In this document: in pieces, positions 12,536 through 45,348 of the stretch | Layout: every line of letters begins with the position of its first letter | How positions within the stretch are numbered: the stretch's first letter is position 1 | Source: Treponema lecithinolyticum ATCC 700332 | GTDB taxonomy: Bacteria > Spirochaetota > Spirochaetia > Treponematales > Treponemataceae | Direction: 5' to 3' | DNA length: 64,000 nucleotides | Assembly: GCA_000468055.1 (NCBI GenBank) | Contig: KI260564.1 | Span: forward strand, 55,827 to 119,826 | Translations under genes and position numbers: made by a program | Notes under the pieces: model-generated | What the model was told of the DNA's origin: nothing | Seen by the model: only the letters and a program-made list of their open reading frames with translations | Databases searched by the model: none

Positions 12536-14332
12536 ATGTCTAAAATTACTGCTGAAACCATAGACGAAATCAACAGCCGCACCGACATTGTTGCGCTGGT
12601 AAACGAATACGTCCGTTTGGAGCGTAGAGCAAACGGATGGTGGGGCTGCTGTCCCTTTCACAACGAAAAAACTCCTTCGTTTAGCGTCAGTGCCGAGCGC
12701 AAAATGTATCACTGCTTCGGATGCGGCGCAGGCGGCGGCCTTATCAACTTTTACATGGAAATGGAAAAAGTCAGCTTTGCCGAAGCGCTTATCGCTTTGG
12801 CACGCAAAAGCGGAGTTGAAATACGCTACGAAACGGGAAGCGAGCCGGTTCAAAGCGAGCGCGACAGTCAAAAAGAGCAGTACATCGACTTATACGGAAG
12901 AGTCGCCGGTACATATCACTTTTTTTTAACCGAAACCGACATGGGAAAAAGCGTTTTGGACTATCTTGAAAAGCGGGGGGTTTCGCGCAAAAGCATAACG
13001 GAATTTCAACTCGGTTATGCTCCGCAAGACCGCTATTGGCTTAAAAAGTTTTTGCGCGAAAAAAATTACAGCGACGCTTTTCTTGAATCTTCCGGTTTGT
13101 TTTCAAAAAAATATCCGGACGTATCTTTTTTTTCAAACCGTTTGATATTCCCCATTTGCGACCGGCGCAGCAGGGTAATCGCATTCGGCGGACGTATTTT
13201 GCAAGGAGACGGTCCCAAATACCTTAATTCCGGCGAATCGGTTCAATACAAAAAAGGCGAAACCCTTTATGCCTTTAACCTTGCAAAACAGCACATACGC
13301 ACGGCAAAATCGGTTATTTTGTGCGAAGGGTATATGGACGTTATTGCTTACCATCAAGCCGGCATACAAACGGCGGTAGCCCCGCTGGGAACTGCTCTTA
13401 CCCAAGAGCAAGTACGTGTACTGCGCTCATTTGCAGATACTTTTTATTTATCGTTTGATTCGGATGAAGCGGGGCAAAAAGCGACGTATAAAGCCATACT
13501 TTTGTGCCGCAAAAACAATGTATCGGTAAAAGTTATTTCACTGGACGAAGGCAAAGACCCTGCAGAAATTCTTTTGAATTCCGGAGCTGAAACATTGACT
13601 AAGCACGTCGAAAATGCTATATTAGATAGTGATTTTTTGTTATCCGTGCTTATGCATCGTTATCCGGCACATACACCGGAAGGCAAAACAAATATATGTT
13701 TGGCTTTTTTTCCGTATTTGGATGCGCTGCAGTCGGACGTACACAGAGAATCCTGCTTCGAGCAGTTATGTCAGGCATTGCAGCTAAAACCGGAAGCGGT
13801 GCGAGCGGATTACGAAAACCGTGAAGCCGCGCGGGAACGGCTGGAGGAAAGATCGGCGGATAATCGACAGCGTTTGAACAAAGGATTTAAGCCGAATGCC
13901 GAAGTGCGCTCAGTGCTTGCCGTTGTTGCAAATCCGGATTATTTTACCCTTATGCGATCCTCTCTTACTGCCGATGATTTTGACGATGCACTTGCGCGCG
14001 ATATGTTTATCACGCTTGAAGAATGCTTTAGAGAAGATGCGGTCAGTTCAGACAGCATACTCAAACGGTGCAGCGAACAAGTGCGCGCTATGGTGGCAAA
14101 AGCCGTTACTTCCGGCGAATTCGAATTGAATTCGCGCAAAACGGTAGACGACGGCATACGTTTGGTGCGTACAAATGCTTTGCGCCGCAAACGCGATTCG
14201 GTTGTAAACCGTATCCGCTGTTTACAAAATGCGCGTCAAGAAGACGCTGCAACGCAAAACGAACTGAACACATTGTTAAACGAAAAAATGAACATAGATT
14301 CCGAATTACAGCGGTTAAAGGACACGCATTGA
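12536..14332 (+). CDS. dnaG: DNA primase
   Basis: A 598-residue primase. The CHC2 zinc finger is C39-x2-H42-x17-C60-x2-C63. The TOPRIM domain follows, with [17 protein letters not shown] and the DSDEAGQKA acidic motif. The C-terminal helicase-binding part is weakly conserved. DnaG makes RNA primers for replication. It sits one base upstream of rpoD in overlapping fashion (the final A of TGA is the A of ATG), a short form of the classical macromolecular-synthesis operon without rpsU. Confidence 0.96.
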
Positions 14333-16110
14333 TGGCTGAGCAAGATAAGGAACTGGATCCTGCAGTACTAAAACTTATTGAACACGGAAAAATAAAGCAA
14401 ATAATCTCTTGGAATGATGTAAGCGATTTTCTTCCTCAAGAGTTGATTATTTCCGACAAGATGGAAGAAATTCTTGTTTTATTGGCAAAAAACAACATTC
14501 AATTGATTGAAGATACGCCTGAGGAAGCTGAAGAAGATGCGGAAGAAATAATCGAAGAAGAAGCCGGAACCGAAGAAATAAAAATAGACGACAGCGACCG
14601 CAAACACTTGGTAAATAACGAAAAAGATTCCGGAACCGACGATCCTATCCGTTTATACTTACGCGAAATAGGTAAAGAGCACTTGCTGACGGCGGAGCAG
14701 GAAGTTCAGCTTTCAAAAAAAATGGAAGACGGTGAAAATATTATAAAAAACGTTATAAAACATTCGGGAATGATGATACCCGAATTTTATCTTATTGCAC
14801 AAAAAGCCTATACGCGTATCGATTTGTCCGAAAGCGGCAGACCGCGCAAAGAAATAAACGAAGAAATGGCGGAAAAACGCCGCTTGCGCGCCGCGTACGG
14901 CGAATATTTAAAACCGATATTGCCGGATATGCGGCAGTATATTTCGCTCAAAAAGCAGTTGTACGAAGCCGATCAAACAAAAAATATTTTTGAAGACGAA
15001 GAACTTTTACAGTTGCGCAAAAAAATCGTACCGCAGCTGCAAAAAGCTGATATTCAATCCGAAGAAATAGAGCGTTTTTCCGACCGCTTTATAGACGCAA
15101 CGTTTAGAATCCGCGAATACCGCCACCGGCAAGAGCGCAAAGCAAAAGATTTGCGCATAAGCGAATACGGTCAATTACGCAGTTTGGGAAAAAAAGTAGC
15201 TATAAAATCGGAGCGCATAAAACTGGAACAGGAATTGGGAATGAGCGCCGATGAAATCCGCGATATTTATACCCAAATTCAAAAAATCGACCGTAAATTG
15301 CGCCGTCTCGAATATGAGTTTGAAGACAATGTACAAGATATTATGACTATGGCGCAGGAAATAGACGCGGGGCGCAAAATGATGGAAGAGGCTAAAAACC
15401 GCCTTATTAATGCCAATTTGCGCTTAGTTGTTTCCATTGCCAAAAAATATACCAACCGCGGTTTACAACTGTTCGATTTAATACAAGAAGGCAACATCGG
15501 GCTTATTAAAGCTGTAGAAAAATTTGAATACCGCAAAGGCTATAAATTTTCAACATACGCTACGTGGTGGATACGCCAAGCGATTACCCGAAGCATATCC
15601 GACCAAGCGCGAACCATCCGTGTGCCTGTTCACATGATAGAACAAATCAACAAAGTAGTGCGCGAATCGCGCCAGCTTATGCAGCGTTTGGGACGCGAGC
15701 CGAGCGACGATGAAATAGCCAATCAACTCGGTTGGCAAGTCACCCGGGTTAAACAGGTAAAAAACGTTGCCCGCGAGCCTATTTCGCTTGAAACACCTAT
15801 CGGCGAAGAAGAAGATTCGCTTTTGGGTGATTTTATTGAAGACAAAGAAGTGGAAAATCCTGCAACTAAAACGGCGTACACGCTGCTCCAAGAGCAAGTG
15901 CAAGGAGTTTTGTCTACGCTGCCGCCGCGCGAACAAGAAGTTTTAAAAATGCGTTTCGGTTTGGACGACGGATATTCGCTCACATTGGAAGAAGTCGGTT
16001 TGTACTTTAACGTAACGCGCGAGCGTATCCGCCAAATAGAAGCAAAAGCCTTGCGCCGGCTTCGCCATCCGCGCCGTTCAAGCGGTTTGCGCGATTATAT
16101 AGACATTTAA
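14332..16110 (+). CDS. rpoD: housekeeping RNA polymerase sigma factor (sigma70)
   Basis: A 592-residue group 1 sigma factor. Region 1.1 is at about residues 8-60, followed by a very acidic linker (about 62-85). Region 1.2 begins [13 protein letters not shown]. Region 2 contains [26 protein letters not shown] and the -10-binding helix [12 protein letters not shown]. Region 4 has the [23 protein letters not shown] near the end. The first ATG that makes sense is at 14332, sharing a base with the dnaG stop; upstream in-frame codons lie inside dnaG. The intact regions 2 and 4 support reading TTGACA/TATAAT-like promoters in this window. Confidence 0.97.
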
Positions 16111-16150
16111 GCGATAATGGTATATAAAATATAAGAGGTACAAAAGACAG

Positions 16151-17014
16151 ATGACAGAGATTTTCGACAAACTAAAAAAATTACAAGATATTTTAGCCGA
16201 AAAATATGCTATCGAGCGTGAAATCGAAGAATCGCCGAAAAAACTTTCGGCGCAAGACGAACTTTTAGCGCGCTTAAAAAAAGAATTTATCGAAAAAAAT
16301 ACCGAATATGAAAGTGTGCGCACAAAAATAGTACAGTTAAAATCGGAATTGGCGGAAGCCGAAGCTGCCCGCGAGCGCGGCGAAAAAGGCATGGATGCCA
16401 TTACCACACACCGCGAGTACGAAGCGCTTGATAAAGAAATCCGCGACGCTACCGAAGCCGAACAAAATACACGCAAAGAACTGCAAAAACAAGAAAAAAT
16501 CCTTGCCGAAATGAACGAAAACTTAAAACAAGATGAACAGCTGATTGCCGGGCAAGAAGAGGAATTGAATTCGGGTAAAGCTTCGCTGAATAAAGAAATA
16601 GCCGGCATGAAAAAACAATTGGAAAAGTTAAGCAAACAAGAGGCAAAAGTTGTTCCCGGCATAGATGCAGAAATTATTTTTAAATTCGAACGTATTATAA
16701 AAAGCAAAAACACGGGAATTGTTGCCGTTAAAGGCAACGTATGCGACGGCTGCCACATGATTTTGCCGGCTCAGTTTGCCAACGATGTACACAACGGCGA
16801 AAGCATTACTTTTTGCCCGTACTGCAGCCGCATTTTATACTATCAAGAAGCCGAGGACGGCGAAAACGAATACTTCCAGCTGGATGATACCGGAAGCCTT
16901 GCCGACTTTGAAGACGATTTTGATGATGAAAACGCAGAGGATGATGAGGACGCGGATACCGTACAAGCAAGTGCGGACCGCGAAGAATTAAAAGATTTGG
17001 GTTACGAAGAATAA
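16151..17014 (+). CDS. coiled-coil protein with C4-type zinc ribbon
   Basis: A 287-residue protein. Residues about 1-185 form a long Glu/Lys-rich coiled coil. Residues about 197-235 hold a zinc ribbon with two CxxC pairs (VCDGC and FCPYC), as in the widespread zf-RING_7 family. The last 45 residues are almost all Asp/Glu, an extension not typical of the family. Members are often predicted to bind nucleic acid, but no activity is established. AAGAGG precedes the ATG. Its stop is only a few bases from the RNase P RNA. Confidence 0.88.
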   Translation: MTEIFDKLKKLQDILAEKYAIEREIEESPKKLSAQDELLARLKKEFIEKNTEYESVRTKIVQLKSELAEAEAARERGEKGMDAITTHREYEALDKEIRDATEAEQNTRKELQKQEKILAEMNENLKQDEQLIAGQEEELNSGKASLNKEIAGMKKQLEKLSKQEAKVVPGIDAEIIFKFERIIKSKNTGIVAVKGNVCDGCHMILPAQFANDVHNGESITFCPYCSRILYYQEAEDGENEYFQLDDTGSLADFEDDFDDENAEDDEDADTVQASADREELKDLGYEE

Positions 17015-17019
17015 TTTTT

Positions 17020-17382
17020 GGAAGAGATGTAACCGCCGTTACAGCCGCTTTTCGGTTGTGACTGAGGAAAGTCCGGGCTCCTTCGGAAAGGATGCCGGCT
17101 AACGGCCGGGGCAGCTGAATAAGCTGTACAGACAGCGCAACAGAAAACAAACCGCCTGCTGTGCAGGCAAGGGTGAAAAGGCGGGGTAAAAGCCCACCGG
17201 GTATTCGGTAACGGATACCGCAGTGCAAGCCTCATTCGGAGCAAGGTCAAGCAGTAACTGATTATTCCGAATCGATAGTTACGGGTAGACCGCTGGAGAC
17301 ACGGAGCAATTCGTGTTCAAGATAGATGGTTACGGCAATCCGTTTTTAAGGATTGTTTACAGAATCCGGCTTATTCTCTTCC
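17020..17382 (+). ncRNA. rnpB: RNase P RNA, bacterial type A
   Basis: About 363 bases with the RNase P core. The first bases GGAAGAG pair with the last bases CTCTTCC to close P1. The universal 5' element around GAGGAAAGTCCGGGC (17065-17079) is matched by ACAGAATCCGGCTTAT near the 3' end (17360-17375), forming P4. A TAAAAGCCCACCG segment and GGGTAGACC are also typical. P1 is followed by ATTTTTTA, which probably serves as the terminator. RNase P cuts the 5' leaders of tRNA precursors. It lies between the zinc-ribbon gene and the TPR gene on the same strand. Confidence 0.95.
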
Positions 17383-35943: not shown

Positions 35944-35972
35944 TTGCACATTTTGCAGTTCAGTTATATAAT
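35944..35972 (+). promoter_or_regulatory. strong promoter of the membrane redox cassette
   Basis: TTGCAC (35944-35949), exactly 17 bases, TATAAT (35967-35972). The expected start near 35979 leaves a leader of about 45 bases with AAAGAGG before the ATG at 36025. The -10 overlaps a perfect palindrome. Confidence 0.75.
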
Positions 35973-35983
35973 ACATGTATTAT
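35968..35983. promoter_or_regulatory. 16-bp perfect palindrome over the -10 and start site (putative operator)
   Basis: ATAATACATGTATTAT reads the same on both strands. It begins inside the TATAAT box and ends past the predicted transcription start, the usual place for a repressor operator (TetR-, MarR- or Fur/PerR-type dimers bind sites like this). The regulator is not evident in the window. Confidence 0.6.
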
Positions 35984-36024
35984 TATATATTTTTTTATAA
36001 ATACTGAAGCAAAGAGGTGTTGGT

Positions 36025-36876
36025 ATGAACAGTTTTCAGGATCGCATGACAGCGGTAAAAATGCCGCATTTTGCCGTGTGGCTGTGTGCAGCAATCGTTA
36101 TTACGGTTGTATCGTTTTTAACGTCGTATTTTCCCATTTGGGCAAACATCCCCGTTAATGTTATTCTTCCTTTTTTGGTTTTGATTTATTTGAAAACGGT
36201 GTTTTTCGAAAAATTAAAACTGTCCACGCTTATTATACTGCGTACCGCAATAGTTGCTGCAGTATTTATCGATTATTTTGCAAACATCGGCGGCTTATGG
36301 TTTGTGTACGTTGTGCTGGCATTTTTAATCATCAATATCCTTGAAGCTACCTTTACTGATTTAAAATACAAAAAATACTTTAACTTTGTAACCGGCCTTG
36401 TTCTTGCCGCTTCCGTTTTGGCTTTGGCTCCCTCGTGGATAAATCTTTCGGGCAAAAGTTTTGCCTTTTCATATATTTACGAAGCGAACAACAGCGCACC
36501 GACGGCGCAGTACGCATTTTGGGGTACCGTATGCTGGATTATCGCATACACGATTTGGAATTGGATTTTTGTAACCGACGAATTCAGCCCTTCTATCGCT
36601 TACCTGCATTTTGCCATTCTGGGTATGCCGCTTTTAGGCTGCATTATTACGCGCAACCCCGGATTGTGGCTTGTGTTCCGCGCCAACTCGCTTACCTGCG
36701 GTGGTATTTTGCAAATTTCGTGTAAACAATTTTTTGAAGAAAAATTAAAAACCGAAAAAATGACGGCCTTTGTCAAAGCAAGCCAAAAAACCGGCGTACA
36801 GGCGGTTTTGATGATTATTAACCTTGCGCTGCTGGCAGTTCCCTGCGCTTTTGCGATTATGAGTAAATTAAACTAG
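36025..36876 (+). CDS. multi-spanning membrane protein of the redox cassette (first paralogue)
   Basis: A 283-residue protein with about eight hydrophobic helices. It carries WIIAYTIWNW near residue 172, which closely matches FWIIAYDLWNL in the 311-residue protein at 39624, so the two are related. Both also have an Arg-Ala pair after the following helices (FRANSLT here, HRAQTLA there). I recall similar uncharacterised proteins (perhaps the DUF5692 group) but am not sure. AAAGAGG precedes the ATG. First gene of a four-gene unit with a flavoenzyme and a reductase. Confidence 0.8.
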   Translation: MNSFQDRMTAVKMPHFAVWLCAAIVITVVSFLTSYFPIWANIPVNVILPFLVLIYLKTVFFEKLKLSTLIILRTAIVAAVFIDYFANIGGLWFVYVVLAFLIINILEATFTDLKYKKYFNFVTGLVLAASVLALAPSWINLSGKSFAFSYIYEANNSAPTAQYAFWGTVCWIIAYTIWNWIFVTDEFSPSIAYLHFAILGMPLLGCIITRNPGLWLVFRANSLTCGGILQISCKQFFEEKLKTEKMTAFVKASQKTGVQAVLMIINLALLAVPCAFAIMSKLN

Positions 36877-36885
36877 AGGAACACC

Positions 36886-38436
36886 ATGCCCCAATACGAC
36901 GCAATCATCATAGGTGCCGGAAACGGCGGCCTTTCGGCGGCTCTTACCTTGGCACAAGCGGGAAAAAAAGTTGCCGTGTTTGAAAAACACAATATTCCCG
37001 GCGGCTGCGGAACAAGCTTTTGCCGCGGACGGTTCGAATTTGAAGTTGCCCTGCACCAATTAAGTTCCATGGGAACGCCGGAAAATCCCGGAGATTTACG
37101 TAAGCTTTTCGAAGAATACGGCATACTGGATAAAATCGATTGGATACAAATAGAATCGCTGTACAAAATCAATTTGCCCGGCGGAAAAGGAGTTGCGCTT
37201 CCGGCAGATAGAGAAAAAGCCGAACAAACCCTTATAAAAGCCTTCCCCGCAGAAAAAGAAGCCATACACAAATATTACGAAACGGTATGGGAATTTAACA
37301 GGGAAATTATTGCGTTTACAAAAAAAAGCGGCGAAAGTTCGCGCAAAGGTAAAAAATCCGGCGAGCCGTCCGCGCTGAAAAAACTGATTATGAAAGCGCT
37401 TTTTCCCAAACTGTATCCGACGCTTGCAAAATATGCCGTCAAAAGCACCGACGATGTGCTGAACGAATTCTTTAAAAGCAAAGAATTGCAGCTGTGCCTT
37501 TCGGCGTACTGGTGCTTTATGGGAATGCCGCCGGAACGCTTTCCGTTTACGATTCTTGCCCGCTGTACGTATATTTACACCGAAGACAAGCCCTTTTATC
37601 TTCGCGGCGGCTCGCAAGTTATCTCGCAAGCTTTAACCGAAGCGATAAAAAAAGCCGGCGGATCGGTATTTTTTAATACCGGCATACAAAAAATCCTGCT
37701 GGAAAACGGTAAAGCATCAGGCGTTATCGACGAAAACGGTGAAAGATACCGCTGTAAAAAAGTTATTTCCAATATTTCGCCGACTGCAACCTATGCAAAC
37801 TTACTCGACGAAAAAGACACTCCCAAAGCGGCACGCGAATACCTTAAAGCATATACCGTCGGCATTTCTGCGCTCACTTGCTTTATCGGTTTGGACTGCC
37901 CGCCCGAAGAAGTCGGCTTTACCGATTCGTTCAATTTAACCTACGACAGCTTGGACGCAAACCGTGATTTTATGAATTCGTACGAATTGAATACGGCGAT
38001 AGACCCGATCGTTTCCACCTGCTATACGGTTGACGATCCGAAAGTTTCTCCGGAAGGTACGAGCATCGTTACGGCAGGTACACTTAAATACGGCGAAGCG
38101 TGGGAAAAACTTTCGCCGGAGCAGTACTATAAAGCAAAGTACGATGCGGCGAATACGATTATCGACCGGCTCGAAAAACGCTATCCGGGTTTTAGAAGCC
38201 ATATCGAAGAATTGGAAGTTGCAACGCCTCTTACCCACATGCGCTATTTAAACCATCCGGGAGGCGCCATTTACGGTTACGAGCAGGATTTAAAGTCGTC
38301 CGTATTTTTTTATCCGCGCGACACTTTTATACCGAACCTCGATTTTGCAAGCGGTTGGGTAAACACATGCGGTTTCGGCCCGAACTACCTGTACGGCAAT
38401 AGTGTAGCTAAAAAGATTTTAAAGGAGTGGGACTGA
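36886..38436 (+). CDS. CrtI/retinol-saturase-like FAD-dependent oxidoreductase
   Basis: A 516-residue flavoprotein of the phytoene desaturase family. It has the dinucleotide-binding IIGAGNGGLSAALTLAQAG at residues 7-25, followed by KHNIPGGCGTSF, and a C-terminal FAD block with FASGWVNTCGFGPNYLYG. Family members desaturate or saturate polyenes such as carotenoids and retinol. Treponemes of this kind are not known for carotenoids and no crtB or crtE lies nearby, so a lipid or quinone-like substrate is possible. It stops one base before the ATG of the reductase gene, implying joint expression. Confidence 0.88.
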   Translation: MPQYDAIIIGAGNGGLSAALTLAQAGKKVAVFEKHNIPGGCGTSFCRGRFEFEVALHQLSSMGTPENPGDLRKLFEEYGILDKIDWIQIESLYKINLPGGKGVALPADREKAEQTLIKAFPAEKEAIHKYYETVWEFNREIIAFTKKSGESSRKGKKSGEPSALKKLIMKALFPKLYPTLAKYAVKSTDDVLNEFFKSKELQLCLSAYWCFMGMPPERFPFTILARCTYIYTEDKPFYLRGGSQVISQALTEAIKKAGGSVFFNTGIQKILLENGKASGVIDENGERYRCKKVISNISPTATYANLLDEKDTPKAAREYLKAYTVGISALTCFIGLDCPPEEVGFTDSFNLTYDSLDANRDFMNSYELNTAIDPIVSTCYTVDDPKVSPEGTSIVTAGTLKYGEAWEKLSPEQYYKAKYDAANTIIDRLEKRYPGFRSHIEELEVATPLTHMRYLNHPGGAIYGYEQDLKSSVFFYPRDTFIPNLDFASGWVNTCGFGPNYLYGNSVAKKILKEWD

Positions 38437-38437
38437 A

Positions 38438-39598
38438 ATGCGCAGTATTAAAGAAATTCTTATCGGCACAATGGAAAACGGCACAGAGGTTTTGAACGAA
38501 ATCGAATTTGCGCGCAAAAGCGGCAAAGATATTTTAGTGCAAAAAGAAGCGGTAAAAAACTGCCTTGCCAAACTGCATCCGGGCAAACTGGAGCTGGAAG
38601 TTTCGGATATCTATCCTGCAGCGCAGGACGCCAAAGTGTTCCGCTTTGTATCCAAAAACGGTTATCTTCCGCCCTTCGAAGCAGGACAATTCATCAACGT
38701 GTTCGTCGAAATAGACGGCGTATGCACGTCAAGACCTTACAGCATTTCGTCCTCGCCCAAACAGCGCTCGTATTACGAAATTACCGTTGCAGCTGTCCCC
38801 AAGGGCTTTGTATCCGCCTACTTTTTAAAAAAAGTAAAAAAGGGCGACAGCTTTACCGTTACTTCCCCGTCCGGACGTTTCCACTACAACCCGGTGTTTC
38901 ATTCAAAAAAGTCCGTGTTTTTAGCCGGTGGAAGCGGTATTACTCCGTTTATGAGTATGACGCGCGAAGTGCTCGAAAGCGGCGAAGACAGAGAAATCTT
39001 TTTGATTTACGGCAACCGCACGGAAAAATCATCTTCGTACCACGAAGAATTGAGCGCTTTCGCCAAAACGTACCCGAACTTTCACTACCAGCTTGTTATT
39101 TCCGACGATAAGGCATACAAGGGTAAAAAAGGGTTTATCGATGCAAAATGCATAAAAAGTTTTGTTAAGCAAACGGACGATGCGACATTTTACTTGTGCG
39201 GCCCGCATATTATGACCGACTTTTGTACCAAGGCGCTTGAAGAACTGCACGTTAAGCCCAAAAACATCCGGCGCGAAATGTTCGGAAGCCGCCAAGACAT
39301 TCAAAACGAACCGTTTTGGCCGGAAAATTTAAGCGGTAAAGAAAACTTTAAAATTTCAGTCGGCGGCAAAACATTCGAAGGAAAGTCGAGCGAATCGCTG
39401 CTTACGAGCCTCGAAAGAGCCGGCGTACGGGTAAACGTGTGCTGCCGAAGCGGAGAATGCAGTTTGTGCCGCGTTAAGCTGGAAAACGGAAAGGTTTTTA
39501 TGCCGCGCGGCGCTTTGCTGCGCTATGCGGACGAAAAGTTCGGCTATATTCATTCGTGCAAAGCCTATCCGATATCGGATGTACGGCTGTCTTTTTAA
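38438..39598 (+). CDS. flavin reductase with C-terminal 2Fe-2S ferredoxin domain
   Basis: A 386-residue electron-transfer protein. Residues about 50-155 bind flavin (RPYS at 99-102), 155-275 bind NAD(P)H (GGSGITPF at 164-171, FYLCGP at 251-256), and 300-386 form a plant-type ferredoxin with ligands C336-x4-C341-x2-C344-x29-C374. The layout matches oxygenase and desaturase reductases. An extra N-terminal segment (1-48) precedes the flavin domain. It most likely feeds electrons from NAD(P)H to the flavoenzyme upstream or to the membrane partners. Confidence 0.92.
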   Translation: MRSIKEILIGTMENGTEVLNEIEFARKSGKDILVQKEAVKNCLAKLHPGKLELEVSDIYPAAQDAKVFRFVSKNGYLPPFEAGQFINVFVEIDGVCTSRPYSISSSPKQRSYYEITVAAVPKGFVSAYFLKKVKKGDSFTVTSPSGRFHYNPVFHSKKSVFLAGGSGITPFMSMTREVLESGEDREIFLIYGNRTEKSSSYHEELSAFAKTYPNFHYQLVISDDKAYKGKKGFIDAKCIKSFVKQTDDATFYLCGPHIMTDFCTKALEELHVKPKNIRREMFGSRQDIQNEPFWPENLSGKENFKISVGGKTFEGKSSESLLTSLERAGVRVNVCCRSGECSLCRVKLENGKVFMPRGALLRYADEKFGYIHSCKAYPISDVRLSF

Positions 39599-39623
39599 TT
39601 TTTTATTAGGATAGGAGATAATT

Positions 39624-40559
39624 ATGTTCTTTTTTGCAAATTATACGTGGCAAAATGTTTTAATCGGTTTGGCGGTTCTTGCAGGGCTTATACTGGTAAA
39701 CGACCTTACGCGACGCAGTAAATGGCTTTCCCTAGCCGTATACATTGTGCTGCCGCTCGTCCTAACCTTTACCGTATGGCCTAAAACGGCGGTACGCGGC
39801 AACGGCGATTGGTTTCCCGTCGTTAAAACGTACTCGGCGCTCGCAGGCGTTATCGGCTTTATGGCAATCCGCTACATAAAAGGCGCGGATACAAAAAAAT
39901 GGCTGTTGTTGTTTCCCTGTTTGATTTTATCGGTTAATATTGCCGAAGCCGTGTACCGCGACTTTGAAGTGTACTTTGCCTACCGCGGTCAAGCCGTTAT
40001 GAACAGTGTAGACGGTTTATTTATGCAAGGCGGCATTTGGAACGTTTTGAATGCGATTGCCGGCATTGTGCTGATTATAACGCTGACCGGCGTATTCGGC
40101 ATAAAGGTTGCAAAGACAAAGTCAAAAGATATGATTTGGCCCGACCAATTGTGGTTTTGGATTATCGCATACGATTTATGGAACTTGTCTTATTGCTACA
40201 ACTGCATTTCGACGCGCTCGATGTATGCCGGCTTTATCCTGCTTTTATCGTGCACGATCAGCGAATTTGTTCTAAAAAAAGGCGCGTGGCTTCAGCATCG
40301 CGCTCAAACGCTGGCTTTGTGGGCAATGTTTTCCATTACTTTTTCAAGCTATGCAAAATCGCCGCTGTTTTCCATAACGTCGAGTTACAAGCCGGCAGCA
40401 CTGCTCGTTATCAGTTTGCTGTCGATCGGCTCAAACCTTGCAGTTTTTGCATACGAAATCGCGCACATTGCCAAAACAAAGCGCAACCCGATTACGCAGG
40501 ATTTGTACATCGACTTAAAATCCTACAAAACGGTATTGCAAGACAATAACCTCGTCTGA
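39624..40559 (+). CDS. multi-spanning membrane protein of the redox cassette (second paralogue)
   Basis: A 311-residue protein with about nine hydrophobic helices. DQLWFWIIAYDLWNLSYCYN near residue 171 is its best landmark and is shared in part with the 283-residue protein at 36025. The cluster YCYNCIS adds two Cys in or near the membrane face. GGAGAT precedes the ATG. It closes the cassette; plsC follows after its own -10 box. Function unknown. Confidence 0.8.
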   Translation: MFFFANYTWQNVLIGLAVLAGLILVNDLTRRSKWLSLAVYIVLPLVLTFTVWPKTAVRGNGDWFPVVKTYSALAGVIGFMAIRYIKGADTKKWLLLFPCLILSVNIAEAVYRDFEVYFAYRGQAVMNSVDGLFMQGGIWNVLNAIAGIVLIITLTGVFGIKVAKTKSKDMIWPDQLWFWIIAYDLWNLSYCYNCISTRSMYAGFILLLSCTISEFVLKKGAWLQHRAQTLALWAMFSITFSSYAKSPLFSITSSYKPAALLVISLLSIGSNLAVFAYEIAHIAKTKRNPITQDLYIDLKSYKTVLQDNNLV

Positions 40560-40598: not shown

Positions 40599-41333
40599 AT
40601 GTTACACACAATCATAGCTTTTATACGCTTTATCGCCTATCTTATCGGATCAAAAAAACACTTAAAACTCGTAAAACAACTCGATTGTGAAGGAAAAATT
40701 GCCGAGCGCGATGCTTTGATTAAAGAAAAAGTTGCCGAATGGACAAAGCTGGTTATAGGTTTAACCGGCAGCACGGTTGAAGTAAGGGGAATTGAAAACA
40801 TTCCGCAAAACGGCACCTTCGTTATGATAGGTAATCACCAAGGCAATATGGACATTCCGCTTCTTTTAGGTTATGTTCCCAAAAGTATTGCTTTTATCTC
40901 AAAAATCGAAATTTTAAAAGTGCCGATTTTATCCGATTGGATGAAATACATGCAGTGCGTATTTATCGACCGTAAAGACAGACGCCAATCGGTCGAAGCT
41001 ATGGCTCAAGCGGTAAAAACCGTAGAACGCGGCTATCCGCTCGTTATTTTTCCCGAAGGCACCAGAAGCCGCGGCGGTCCCGTTGCCGAGTTCAAACCGG
41101 GAAGTTTTAAGCTCGCCTACCGTTCCAGTGCTTTGATTGTTCCCTTTACCATTGACGGCACGTGGCATTTACTGGAAGAAAAAGGACAAATTAAAGGTGC
41201 ACCCGTTACGTTGACCATTCACCCTGCCGTGTCGACTGCCGGTCTCGGACGTGAAGAACAAGCAGAGCTTCCCGAACGCATACGGCAAACGGTTGCAAGC
41301 GCTTTACCGAAAGAACACTTGCGCAAAACTTAA
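40599..41333 (+). CDS. plsC: 1-acyl-sn-glycerol-3-phosphate acyltransferase
   Basis: A 244-residue acyltransferase. The catalytic HX4D motif is NHQGNMD near residue 78, and the substrate-binding motif is FPEGTRSRGG near 151. It adds the second acyl chain in phosphatidic acid synthesis. An N-terminal hydrophobic stretch (residues 1-18) associates it with the membrane. It follows the redox cassette by 39 bases, so read-through from that promoter is possible and would link the cassette to lipid metabolism. A strong terminator follows. Confidence 0.92.
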   Translation: MLHTIIAFIRFIAYLIGSKKHLKLVKQLDCEGKIAERDALIKEKVAEWTKLVIGLTGSTVEVRGIENIPQNGTFVMIGNHQGNMDIPLLLGYVPKSIAFISKIEILKVPILSDWMKYMQCVFIDRKDRRQSVEAMAQAVKTVERGYPLVIFPEGTRSRGGPVAEFKPGSFKLAYRSSALIVPFTIDGTWHLLEEKGQIKGAPVTLTIHPAVSTAGLGREEQAELPERIRQTVASALPKEHLRKT

Positions 41334-41399: not shown

Positions 41400-42959
41400 T
41401 TACTTTTTATTTTTCCATTCAACGTCAAAGGAAAGTTCCATATCACCCCAGCCGGCTTTTTTGAAAACACCGACCCAGTCCCAAATATAGGCTGAAATAC
41501 CGATTTTCATTGTAGATTTTTTTCCGTTTTGAACTTCGTTCATCGCTACGGATGTTACTTTCCATTCGCCGTCCCCGTCGGAATAATGCTGTACCGAATT
41601 TCCCGTTATATTCCACGCTTCAGTTACGTTATCGTAAGAAACGGTAAACAGCGGTTTTTCGTGTTTTATGATTACATCGTCCGAATTGCCTGCCAGAGGA
41701 TCAACTTCCCAAATATCGGCGCTTATAGTAATGGAATGACTGCCTTCTGCAGGTTTTTCTATTTCCTGTAAATAATTACCTGCCAACTCTTTTTGAGTAC
41801 CGACATTTATAGACAGTTTTTTTCCGTTGTTTGTTGCAAAGGTATACCATTCCTCATTGTTATAGCGCGCTTTAAGTTCGTATTTAAATTCTGCTTGGTT
41901 GGAACTGCCTCCTAGAGGATAATCACCGCCGACATCTTTTATGGAAATATTTTTAAGTGCAATATTTGATATTTGTATAGCCGGTTTTTGAGCATCTCCT
42001 ACATATCCCAAGTACGGCGATTTTCCGGTAAAAGCCGGATCGTAATTGCCGTTTGCCAAATTACCTTTATAGGTATCGCTCATATAAAAAGAACCGTCTT
42101 CGGCTATGTACCCTGCAGGATCGTATTCGTAAAAACGGTATTTTTTTCCGCCGGGTCCTGTAGATACCGCATCCACAGGCGCCCATTTAGTCGGCACTTG
42201 ATTGCCGGCAACGGATTTAAATTGAATGGGTTTTGCAAAAGCGAATACCAATTTTGCATAAGTGTCGACGGCAACGATGTAATTATCCAGCCATACAATC
42301 CCGCCGCCTTTACCGGTAAAGCGATAAAATATAAAACGCTTCATTCGCGCTTCTTTTGTACCGGTAGGTTTTCCGTCTTTGCCGTACACTTCGTATTCTT
42401 CGTTTGTATACAAATTAAACGGATTTTTACCGCAATAACGGTAATAAGTCATAGAACTTATGCTATTGCCTCCGGCGGAAGCGCTTTCGTTGCCGTCGCC
42501 GTATTGCTGACGTTCCGGATTTCCGCTTTCGGGAGCGGCTTTCCATTCAATTTCGCCGTCGTATTTGGGTTCGGGTACGTTGCTTGCCGAAAAATTGCTG
42601 CGGAATTTCCATGTACTGAATTTTTCAGTAGAAAAGGTTGCAAAGGGAAAGCCGTCCGAAGCGTTCAGTTTAGCGGCAAGCTGTGTATGCACGGTGGTGT
42701 CGCCTTTAGGTTCGGCTATAAAGCCGTCCGGCAATAGAACTGAAAACATACTGATTTTTCCCGGATCAAGGGGTTGCTCGGGAGGAATAGGATCTCCTCC
42801 TCCCCAATCGGGTGGCTGCGAACCGCCGCCTTCGTTTGCTGCTCTGTTTTGCTGCTGCACATAGTACGGTGATAAAAAAGGAGCTGTACAAGCAGCGCAT
42901 ACAAAACATATTAGTGCAAGAGCGTAAAATCCGTAGTTATTCTTGCCAACCGATTTCAT
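41400..42959 (-). CDS. large lipoprotein, tandem paralogue 2
   Basis: A 519-residue lipoprotein; the signal peptide ends CAAC (Cys24), a relaxed spirochaetal lipobox with Cys at -3. YVQQQNRAANEGG follows the anchor. The middle shares strong blocks with the neighbour at 42937: MKRFIFYRFTGKGGG, then AVDTYAKLVFAF and QVPTKWAPVD. The C-terminal third differs from the neighbour and is beta-rich. Likely a surface or outer-membrane-associated lipoprotein. The start codon overlaps the end of the upstream paralogue by 23 bases. Third gene of the operon begun by the OMP gene. Confidence 0.85.
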   Translation of the reverse strand: MKSVGKNNYGFYALALICFVCAACTAPFLSPYYVQQQNRAANEGGGSQPPDWGGGDPIPPEQPLDPGKISMFSVLLPDGFIAEPKGDTTVHTQLAAKLNASDGFPFATFSTEKFSTWKFRSNFSASNVPEPKYDGEIEWKAAPESGNPERQQYGDGNESASAGGNSISSMTYYRYCGKNPFNLYTNEEYEVYGKDGKPTGTKEARMKRFIFYRFTGKGGGIVWLDNYIVAVDTYAKLVFAFAKPIQFKSVAGNQVPTKWAPVDAVSTGPGGKKYRFYEYDPAGYIAEDGSFYMSDTYKGNLANGNYDPAFTGKSPYLGYVGDAQKPAIQISNIALKNISIKDVGGDYPLGGSSNQAEFKYELKARYNNEEWYTFATNNGKKLSINVGTQKELAGNYLQEIEKPAEGSHSITISADIWEVDPLAGNSDDVIIKHEKPLFTVSYDNVTEAWNITGNSVQHYSDGDGEWKVTSVAMNEVQNGKKSTMKIGISAYIWDWVGVFKKAGWGDMELSFDVEWKNKK

Positions 42960-44526
42960 AACACAACTCCATCTGCCCGTTATGGTTATTTTTCGCTACG
43001 GGAAAAGTAACCGGCACAATAATTTTAAACAATTTTTTTTCTCCGGAAGCAAGTGTAAAATCATTATCCAGCACAACCGCTCTTCCGTCAGGTACAGTTA
43101 TATCATTTTTGTCAAAAAGTTTCCAGCACCGATCGGTATGATTATAAGTAAAACGGATTAAAGGCTTGCCGTACCGCGTCACTGCATGTTCGAGCGGAAA
43201 ACCTATAAAACCGGGTATAACCATTCTCGGCTTTCGTATAATTTCACTGTCCAATTCGATTACATGCGGTCCTTTTACGCCTTTAAATCGGTACGCACGG
43301 CTGCTGTCTTGACTAAAATCTTTTTGCGCTCCGACATCCAATTCTTTACCTTTTTCTTCGTTTTGTTGCGCAAGGGAATCCAAGTCGGGGCTGCTGAAAT
43401 TTCCGCTGTATGCACGCGAACGTATATCCCAAGTAAAGCTTTGAATTCTGGGGTTTCCGTCGGCATCTTTATCGTAGTTGTCTATTGCCGAAACGTTTTT
43501 AAAGTATATTGCCGTTACGGTTAAAGTACCTGTAAGCGCAGGAGTTTGTACGATAGTTCCCGCACAATAAGCATAGGGAGATTTTCCGGTAAAAACGGGA
43601 TCGTAGTGTTTGTTTTTGGAATTGGTTTTATACGTTTCGGTTAATACAAAAGAGCCGTCTTCTTTGACATATCCGACAGGATCATATTCGTAAAAACGGT
43701 AACGTACTCTTCCGGTTATCGCATCTTTAGGACCTTCGCACACAGTGTCTACCGGCGCCCATTGAGTGGGAACTTGTTCTTTTTGTACCGTTTTAAAGCG
43801 GATAGGTTTTCCGAAAGTGAATATCAGCTTTGAATACGTATCGACGGCTACCAAACAATTATCGAGCGCTACAAGTCCGCCGCCTTTACCGGTAAAACGG
43901 TAAAATACAAAGCGTTTCATAAGCGGTTCGCTTTGTTCGGATAATTCGCCGTCTTCGGTATATATTTTGTACATTTCGTTTTGATACAAACTGTAGGGAT
44001 TTATACCGTAGTAACGGAAATATTTCATTTCGGTTATCGGGTTTTTACCGTTTTCTTCGGTAAGCGCCGATGAATCCGCTCCCAGATAATATTGTTCCGA
44101 TCCGATTTTTCCCTGCCACTCAACCGTTCCGCTGTACTTCATAAAAGAAACATTGTATTCGAATGTACTTTCGAGTTTCCAATCCGTAAACAAAGTGTCT
44201 GAAAATGCGGGGAATTCGGTAATTCCCATATCAAGAGCGGCAAGTTTCTCGCTTACAAAACGGTGTGCTTTATCGCCTGCGGCATTGTTTTTTTCTTTCG
44301 GTTCTATTATAACACCGCCCTGCCGTATAACCGAAAACATATTAAAAGAGCCTTCCGGCAATACGGGTACAGGAATATCGGCATTTCCCCAATCTTCGGG
44401 TTTATTTTGAAATGCCGAACGGTTTTGCTGTTGTATGTAATATGGGTTAAAGGGCGCCGAACATGCGGCGCACACAAAGCATAACAGCAACAACAGCGTA
44501 CTTTTTTTTATTGATATACGCTTCAT
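42937..44526 (-). CDS. large lipoprotein, tandem paralogue 1
   Basis: A 529-residue lipoprotein with a signal peptide ending CAAC (Cys22) and then SAPFNPYYIQQQNRS, nearly the same as the paralogue downstream. Shared internal blocks are MKRFVFYRFTGKGGG, AVDTYSKLIFTF and VPTQWAPVD. The tail diverges. AAAGGA lies 11 bases before the ATG. The pair looks like an old gene duplication with the C-terminal third free to change, as expected for exposed proteins. No named family is recognised. Confidence 0.85.
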   Translation of the reverse strand: MKRISIKKSTLLLLLCFVCAACSAPFNPYYIQQQNRSAFQNKPEDWGNADIPVPVLPEGSFNMFSVIRQGGVIIEPKEKNNAAGDKAHRFVSEKLAALDMGITEFPAFSDTLFTDWKLESTFEYNVSFMKYSGTVEWQGKIGSEQYYLGADSSALTEENGKNPITEMKYFRYYGINPYSLYQNEMYKIYTEDGELSEQSEPLMKRFVFYRFTGKGGGLVALDNCLVAVDTYSKLIFTFGKPIRFKTVQKEQVPTQWAPVDTVCEGPKDAITGRVRYRFYEYDPVGYVKEDGSFVLTETYKTNSKNKHYDPVFTGKSPYAYCAGTIVQTPALTGTLTVTAIYFKNVSAIDNYDKDADGNPRIQSFTWDIRSRAYSGNFSSPDLDSLAQQNEEKGKELDVGAQKDFSQDSSRAYRFKGVKGPHVIELDSEIIRKPRMVIPGFIGFPLEHAVTRYGKPLIRFTYNHTDRCWKLFDKNDITVPDGRAVVLDNDFTLASGEKKLFKIIVPVTFPVAKNNHNGQMELCYEIGWQE

Positions 44527-44538
44527 CGCTTTGTTCCT

Positions 44539-45348
44539 TTACAGTTTAAATGCAAACCCGACGCTAAGACCGAAGTCCAGCGAATTAAGCCAATAGTCGG
44601 GAACCGGATCGTTTAAATTAGCTTGTTTTGCAAGGTCGCCGGGTGCGGTTAAATATTTCGGGCGATATATATTATAACGCGTATACCAACCCAATATAAT
44701 ATCGGTTGTATTTACAATCGGAATATTGTATTCAATTAAACCTTTAACCGAAGCCATAAGAGGGTTCATTTTTTTCATCATTTCTTCGGTTATAATTATT
44801 TCCCCGACTTTAGTGTCCAAACTGGGATCGGAAAAATAATATAAATACGACGGTCTTGTATCGGCTATCATACGACCGCCGATGCCCAAGCCGAGCGCAA
44901 GGCGGTTACTAAAAAAATACGCTTTACCCGTTACACCGAAATTAACGACAGGCATAAAATTAATGCTTATAAAAGTATCCACTTTGCCAGTTCCGGTATC
45001 CGCTGTAATTTTTTGCGCGGTATTGCCCTGCCCTACACCCAAGCAGGCAAAAGCTCCTACGCCGCTAAACGGATGATTTTTAGGCAAACCGAAAAATCGG
45101 TTGCTTGAAAATACATAACCGCCTTCAACTTCACCGCTCATAAGCAAACCGCTCATTATACCGGTCATTTTTTCGGCTTTGGGGTTAAGCTTTTTTAAGC
45201 TTTCATCGGAAATAAAGGGTGTGGTAAGAGCGCCGCCGAAATCGGCACGCAAATACAACAACGGCCCGTTTTCAAAAGCAACGAGCGAAGACAAGGTCAA
45301 AAGACCTGCAAAAACGGTGATAACACCTTTAAAACGTAACTTTTTCAT
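44539..45348 (-). CDS. outer-membrane beta-barrel protein (putative)
   Basis: A 269-residue protein with a signal peptide (hydrophobic core at residues 9-24, cleavage near LVAFE). The mature part alternates short amphipathic strands with turns: RADFGGALTTPF, NFGVTGKAYFFSNRLALGLGIGG and a final LDFGLSVGFAFKL. This is the pattern of a small porin-like barrel, though it ends in Leu rather than the usual Phe. It is first in a three-gene operon with two lipoproteins. Confidence 0.7.
   Translation of the reverse strand: MKKLRFKGVITVFAGLLTLSSLVAFENGPLLYLRADFGGALTTPFISDESLKKLNPKAEKMTGIMSGLLMSGEVEGGYVFSSNRFFGLPKNHPFSGVGAFACLGVGQGNTAQKITADTGTGKVDTFISINFMPVVNFGVTGKAYFFSNRLALGLGIGGRMIADTRPSYLYYFSDPSLDTKVGEIIITEEMMKKMNPLMASVKGLIEYNIPIVNTTDIILGWYTRYNIYRPKYLTAPGDLAKQANLNDPVPDYWLNSLDFGLSVGFAFKL

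Follow-up and report, generated by a model that had tools for sequence, protein, structure and literature searches.

What reaction is carried out by four closely packed genes of Treponema lecithinolyticum ATCC 700332? The genes lie in a 64,000-nucleotide stretch of contig KI260564.1 (positions 55,827 to 119,826), the whole of which is here called the window. They are named memA (36025-36876; 283 amino acids), crtI (36886-38436; 516 amino acids), fer (38438-39598; 386 amino acids), and memB (39624-40559; 311 amino acids), and they encode, in that order, a membrane protein, a flavin adenine dinucleotide (FAD) enzyme of the CrtI/carotenoid-isomerase superfamily, an NAD(P)H-flavin reductase with a C-terminal plant-type 2Fe-2S domain, and a second membrane protein. 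A preliminary description made from the DNA alone had reported four genes in one orientation with very short gaps, and the list of open reading frames (ORFs) agreed: the genes are arranged head-to-tail on the plus strand over 36025-40559 with gaps of 9, 1, and 25 base pairs (bp). The start given earlier, position 35944, is intergenic, and the memA ATG is at 36025. We propose, with a probability of about 0.5, that the cassette may catalyze an oxygen-independent, NAD(P)H-driven reduction or reductive isomerization of acyl-chain C=C bonds at the membrane, and we infer both direction and substrate mostly from a sister clade of loci.

Relatives of CrtI were collected by scanning GTDB contigs with three CrtI sequences, which gave 113 confirmed sequences, the best 80 of which were kept. 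Among these best 80 of 113, 19 CrtI proteins (loci L034-L052) matched at 64-73% identity, after which identity dropped to 31%. The order memA-crtI-fer-memB was complete in 15 of the 19 loci, and it was also complete in the window and in genomes G001 and G201. With two loci cut by contig ends (L048 and L051) kept outside the count, the four-gene order is complete in 18/21 uninterrupted loci from Spirochaetota and Bacillota, so that the same order, which the preliminary description had proposed looking for in other genomes, was found there and the genes stay together. The 18 complete loci do not amount to 18 independent events, as L036, L037, L045, and some others are mutually close. We conclude that the four-gene cassette is a real unit.

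The cassette is thinly spread. Seven of 394 Spirochaetia genomes have a CrtI of at least 65% identity and 19 others have a form at 30-35% identity (E ≤1e-60); in 391 genomes of the class that includes Schaedlerella genome G417, the close form occurred only in G417 and the distant form in 12. Cassette CrtI is also present in the named strains Schaedlerella arabinosiphila DSM 106076 and Pygmaiobacter massiliensis. A rare and patchy cassette whose CrtI is nevertheless 64-73% identical between Spirochaetota and Bacillota has the distribution that lateral transfer would give.

The distant CrtI form was read at 32 loci, comprising 17 of 20 Spirochaetia sister places, 12 regions that cover 14 sister places in the class of G417, and L053-L055. 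fer lies beside or near CrtI in 21/21 cassette loci and in 32/32 sister loci examined, and its four cysteines are present in the 21 cassette loci and in 31 of the 32 sister loci, the last of which (L147) ends inside fer. No memA or memB match was found around crtI in the 32 sister loci, on which ground DUF5692, the family of memB, was rejected as an obligate part of the CrtI chemistry. In a tree built by a quick method, 20 cassette CrtI sequences formed one clade (support 100) and 34 rows of CrtI-fer pairs formed another (support 99); the node that unites these clades had support 98 and involves long branches, and the next rows outside them were one from Chlorobium and one from Thiotrichaceae. 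Cassette rows outside the tree are L041 (same genome as L142), L051 (contig-cut), and L047 and L048 (ORFs called on the opposite strand). Since fer accompanies CrtI in the sister clade, where DUF5692 proteins are missing, CrtI-fer is the core of the system. The combination of CrtI and a dedicated NAD(P)H-2Fe-2S reductase looks like a distinct type of enzyme, with memA and memB apparently acquired, or lost, along one branch.

The CrtI subunit belongs to the broad CrtI/amine-oxidase FAD superfamily, as indicated by Pfam Amino_oxidase (57.2 bits, cut-off 19.8; E 2.4e-15), NAD_binding_8 (48.2 bits, cut-off 21.9), and an N-terminal FAD dinucleotide-binding motif. Carotenoid isomerase TIGR02730 was the best-scoring named model, for which the window CrtI reached 186.5 bits and the cut-off is 586.9, and the same model came first, likewise below its cut-off, for seven scanned relatives. 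Phytoene desaturase TIGR02734 gave 130.7 bits against a cut-off of 238.1, so that the protein scores below both family thresholds. The nearest solved structures are carotenoid desaturases, yet they are distant. CRTISO/CrtH and the CrtI phytoene desaturases (TIGR02730, TIGR02734; PDB 4rep, 4dgk) share the FAD superfamily with cassette CrtI over an alignment that spans most of its length, but cassette CrtI forms a separate clade, scores below their cut-offs, and has a dedicated NAD(P)H-2Fe-2S reductase. Grouping with a characterized enzyme acting on an unrelated soluble substrate, which would have spoken against the preliminary description, was looked for and not seen. Retinol saturase (RetSat) is a CrtI-superfamily enzyme that saturates a C=C bond; its likeness to cassette CrtI is one of proposed chemistry.

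Carotenoid synthesis was set aside, given scores below the models and a single CrtI match at E 1e-10 in the genome that contains the window (G000; 2,340,885 bases, 21 contigs). The earlier statement that no carotenoid genes are near holds for the ORFs listed between about 30 and 46 kb, of which seven proteins were scanned with Pfam and for which no phytoene-synthase search was made.

The Fer protein carries the Pfam domains FAD_binding_6, NAD_binding_1, and Fer2 and the cysteine pattern C336-X4-C-X2-C-X29-C, which together identify an FNR-type reductase with a plant-type 2Fe-2S cluster and confirm that, as first described, the reductase is complete with all four cluster cysteines. The nearest solved chain is the benzoate dioxygenase reductase 1krh (3.2e-29). 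BenC/PaaE-type oxygenase reductases (PDB 1krh) have the same electron path of flavin, NAD(P)H, and C-terminal-type 2Fe-2S cluster, but the partner of Fer is a CrtI-like enzyme and no oxygenase, and Fer scores below the NCBIfam equivalog cut-offs. In two related genomes, one fer is flanked by two different crtI genes (L189, 6308-10611; L190, 3777-8080), which suggests that the two CrtI proteins draw on a common reductase or form a heterodimer.

The second membrane protein, MemB, is a member of a named family, PF18948/DUF5692 (386.2 bits, cut-off 27, E 1.3e-115). MemA of the window matched no Pfam family above the cut-off, and a DUF5692 search of its genome returned only MemB. MemA of some relatives (G416, G423, and G417) passes the DUF5692 cut-off; MemA and MemB matched each other by BLASTP at E 8e-06; and alignments of the two families matched with an hhalign probability of 97.2 (E 4.3e-11, 207 columns). 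The IIAYxxWN motif previously noted in both proteins falls inside the BLASTP-matched stretch, as WIIAYTIWN and WIIAYDLWN. We conclude that memA and memB are remote paralogues.

AlphaFold2 single-chain models of both proteins are helical bundles, with a mean predicted local distance difference test score (pLDDT) of 91.9 for MemB and 88.6 for MemA, and comparison of the MemA and MemB models gave no clear structural relative above the helical-bundle background. No cofactor motif was recognized in MemA or MemB, and crtI-fer pairs exist in loci that lack both; the suggestion that the membrane proteins carry electrons is therefore not supported. In two genomes of one genus, memA is absent from G015 (L029, 6875-7032) and present in G201 (L140, 6099-6932), and it may thus be dispensable or recently lost.

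Candidate substrates were sought among neighboring genes. Acyl genes lie within three ORFs of the crtI-fer pair in 10/32 sister loci, and acyl ORFs made up 24/169 of those within three ORFs of the sister pair, 6/84 of those further out, and 5/805 of those in control loci. As the references for the acyl count were picked from those same sister loci, the count describes rather than tests, and the Fisher value of 7e-15 for acyl neighbors, which counts kindred loci and ORFs as if they were independent and uses post hoc references, is no fair probability. In five Spirochaetia loci (L148, L151, L156, L157, and L159), fer is followed by DegV (FakB-like) and then FakA, and a PlsY homologue stands three ORFs from the pair in L148, L156, and L157. 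FakA/FakB makes acyl phosphate, which PlsY uses. The pair lies behind the fab genes FabD, FabF, and FabZ in L153-L155 (in L155, those no more than three ORFs away are FabF and FabZ), and the gene next to the pair is PlsY in L186 and an AMP-binding ligase in L192. These assignments were checked with Pfam for L148, L154, L157, L186, and L192 and made by BLAST for the rest.

In the window, the cassette is followed, as originally noted, by plsC (40599-41333, plus strand), an optional neighbor of the 1-acylglycerol-3-phosphate acyltransferase family (PF01553; TIGR00530, 116.5 bits, cut-off 102.95) that begins 39 bp downstream of memB. No plsC match was found in L034-L052. DUF5692 also adjoins an acyltransferase gene in L026 and L024. 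Judged from this gene context, the substrate would be a long hydrophobic chain, most probably that of an unsaturated fatty acid or acyl lipid.

Given a dedicated reductase in presumably anaerobic hosts, the simplest reading is that electrons from NAD(P)H reach a C=C bond by way of Fer and the FAD of CrtI, and reduction is favored over desaturation because the NAD(P)H-2Fe-2S reductase accompanies CrtI at every cassette and sister locus. In such a scheme, NAD(P)H would reduce the Fer flavin, and the 2Fe-2S cluster would hand electrons one at a time to FAD in the CrtI-like subunit. Once reduced, this FAD could saturate or shift a C=C bond in the chain held by the enzyme, while the DUF5692-type pair might dock soluble CrtI-fer, admit or hold the lipid, or both. 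The cell might benefit by clearing polyunsaturated fatty acids that are toxic to it, by disposing of electrons, or by adjusting its membrane. The working idea with which the locus had first been described, a membrane-bound electron chain that reduces or desaturates a lipid tail, is thus kept in its lipid part, with an acyl link that comes mainly from sister-clade neighbors and with reduction preferred, and is not supported as regards electron-carrying membrane proteins.

DUF5692 links the cassette to another system. In a set of 988 homologues of the putative isoprene reductase IsrA, the family co-occurs at 0.4 (PMC10134865), and no other literature naming DUF5692 was found. That paper also places an oleate hydratase gene in the IsrA neighborhood of A. 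woodii and A. fimetarium. Pairing of DUF5692 with an IsrA homologue was seen here at L160 and L161, and IsrA-HypA genes adjoin 4/19 cassettes (L035, L044, L045, and L050), with Pfam checks for IsrA in L035 and L044, HypA in L035, and HypB in L044. At both loci that lack memB (L035, 5400-12807; L044, 2405-9696), the cassette is head-to-tail with the IsrA and HypA genes.

A full-length IsrA homologue of at least 49% identity was present in 18/23 cassette genomes searched (not in G000, G078, G335, G820, or G822) and in none of three sister genomes searched. Within Spirochaetia, an IsrA match at E ≤1e-150 occurred in 4/7 cassette genomes and in 40/394 genomes overall (hypergeometric 0.0026, a value that takes no account of kinship, with two of the four from a single genus); the co-occurrence is only a hint. 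The IsrA system, with its DUF5692, HypA, and HypB neighbors (PMC10134865), has in common with the cassette the DUF5692 neighbor and a putative action on C=C bonds, but IsrA is a different protein of about 900 amino acids with 4Fe-4S and Pyr_redox domains. We raise as a speculative and rather doubtful extension that the cassette and IsrA-HypA might each make up half of an anaerobic biohydrogenation pathway not yet described, in which CrtI-fer with the DUF5692 pair would make or handle conjugated polyunsaturated acyl chains, IsrA homologues would reduce the conjugated diene as IsrA is thought to do with isoprene, and DUF5692 would serve both as the membrane port by which hydrophobic, unsaturated substrates are taken up.

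Several observations weigh against acyl-chain reduction by the cassette. In 22 of the 32 sister loci, several of them on short contigs, acyl genes were not seen within three ORFs, and the sister-locus ORFs beyond three also exceed the control. For cassette loci, plsC is the one acyl neighbor seen, and only the window and G001 have it. Nor is the gene set constant, as L035 and L044 have no memB at the site, the L044 genome has no other DUF5692 protein above the cut-off, and G015 lacks memA. DUF5692 was found in 12/59 near-relative genomes, beside crtI-fer only in G000, G001, and G015; the family usually stands without CrtI. Finally, the genome of the window has neither a FakA match nor a full-length IsrA homologue, and a FakAB step in the organism's own pathway and an IsrA step in the organism were both set aside accordingly. 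We conclude that whatever the cassette does in the genome of the window is done without IsrA or FakA.

Four other readings compete with acyl-chain reduction, and they differ in substrate, in electron balance, or in direction. The enzyme might instead saturate or isomerize C=C bonds of a polyprenyl, quinone-tail, terpenoid, retinoid, or carotenoid compound, whether the cell's own or derived from a host. Such an isoprenoid substrate would suit a superfamily whose named models are carotenoid enzymes and whose nearest solved chains are carotenoid desaturases, and it would suit the DUF5692 neighbor IsrA, a putative isoprene reductase for whose homologues terpenes are suggested as substrates in PMC10134865. 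Since no isoprenoid gene was recognized beside the loci, where Pfam scans covered selected neighbors, and the acyl neighbors of the sister clade point elsewhere, we consider this substrate possible but not probable. The model scores bear equally on a redox-neutral isomerase, in which Fer would merely keep the CrtI FAD reduced and trans or conjugated bonds would form without net reduction. Carotenoid isomerase needs reduced FAD, and it is the top named model for the window CrtI and seven relatives; the scores are far under the cut-off, and an NAD(P)H reductase that is dedicated to CrtI and always found with it would better fit stoichiometric use of electrons, so that we regard pure isomerization as unlikely.

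Gene neighborhood in the sister clade could also be read as a link to fatty-acid synthesis, with the enzyme acting there, at least, as an enoyl-ACP or enoyl-thioester reductase in place of FabI or FabK. The fab genes that precede the pair in L153-L155 (G353, G308, and G374) fit this idea, as does the lack of a FabK-family protein above the cut-off in any of 10 genomes, including G308, G353, G374, and G000 (G335 gave a subthreshold match at 2.3e-36; FabI, FabL, and FabV were not searched). We think this reading very unlikely, as no fab genes are among the listed neighbors of its clade and as the CrtI superfamily acts on long polyenes. Reversal of the electron path would yield an oxidative desaturase that passes electrons from lipid through Fer to NAD(P)+, in keeping with the fact that most of the nearest solved relatives of CrtI are desaturases. 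That direction is highly improbable, as NAD(P)+ is a poor acceptor for desaturation of unactivated C-C bonds and the Fer relatives BenC and PaaE move electrons from NAD(P)H.

If the cassette does reduce acyl chains, it would differ from fatty acid-modifying enzymes already described. PMC13365329 covers the Lactobacillus CLA-HY/DH/DC/ER route and a polyunsaturated fatty acid isomerase of Cutibacterium acnes; they resemble the cassette in proposed substrate class, but the Lactobacillus route is a set of hydratase, dehydrogenase, decarboxylase-type, and enone reductase enzymes. Butyrivibrio hydrogenates fatty acids, according to PMC7339423 and PMC13365329, and Treponema does not occur in the main text of PMC7339423 or PMC6037716. 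For hydrogenation of fatty acids by a rumen Treponema or another spirochaete, no literature support was found, and the idea carries no weight here. By title, papers on biohydrogenation with Treponema or spirochaetes were mainly feeding trials in ruminants, and none of the listed papers on retinol saturase with reductases concerned bacteria. No prior description of the cassette was found in literature on DUF5692, phytoene-desaturase-like and saturase enzymes, biohydrogenation, or IsrA, mostly judged by title, and as far as these searches go the cassette is undescribed. The cassette would provide a compact candidate set for anaerobic reduction of polyunsaturated fatty acids, and it ties the DUF5692 family, of unknown function, to two different C=C enzymes, CrtI-like and IsrA. 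To our knowledge, the genes by which strict rumen and gut anaerobes reduce polyunsaturated fatty acids directly are largely unidentified.

Other features were recorded around these loci. A regulator gene lies 5′ of the cassette in L034 (GntR with an FCD domain) and L035 (TetR), both assigned by Pfam, and other loci appeared similar by eye alone. A DUF5692 remnant of 64 positions sits beside an IsrA homologue on contig 1 of G001 (1454647-1458363; L033). On contig 19 of G010 (13536-17036; L027), HypA and DUF5692 genes lie near a fragment of IsrA that is interrupted by a stop. The spacing between thiI and memA is 121 bp in the window and about 3.4 kb in G001 (L020, 2003-5460). According to the ORF lists alone, two similar-looking neighboring genes with a lipoprotein-like start (41400-42959 and 42937-44526, both on the minus strand) are followed in the window by a possible envelope gene (44539-45348, minus strand), and the related region of G001 (L020, 11446-13875) has one such lipoprotein-like gene plus a counterpart of the possible envelope gene.

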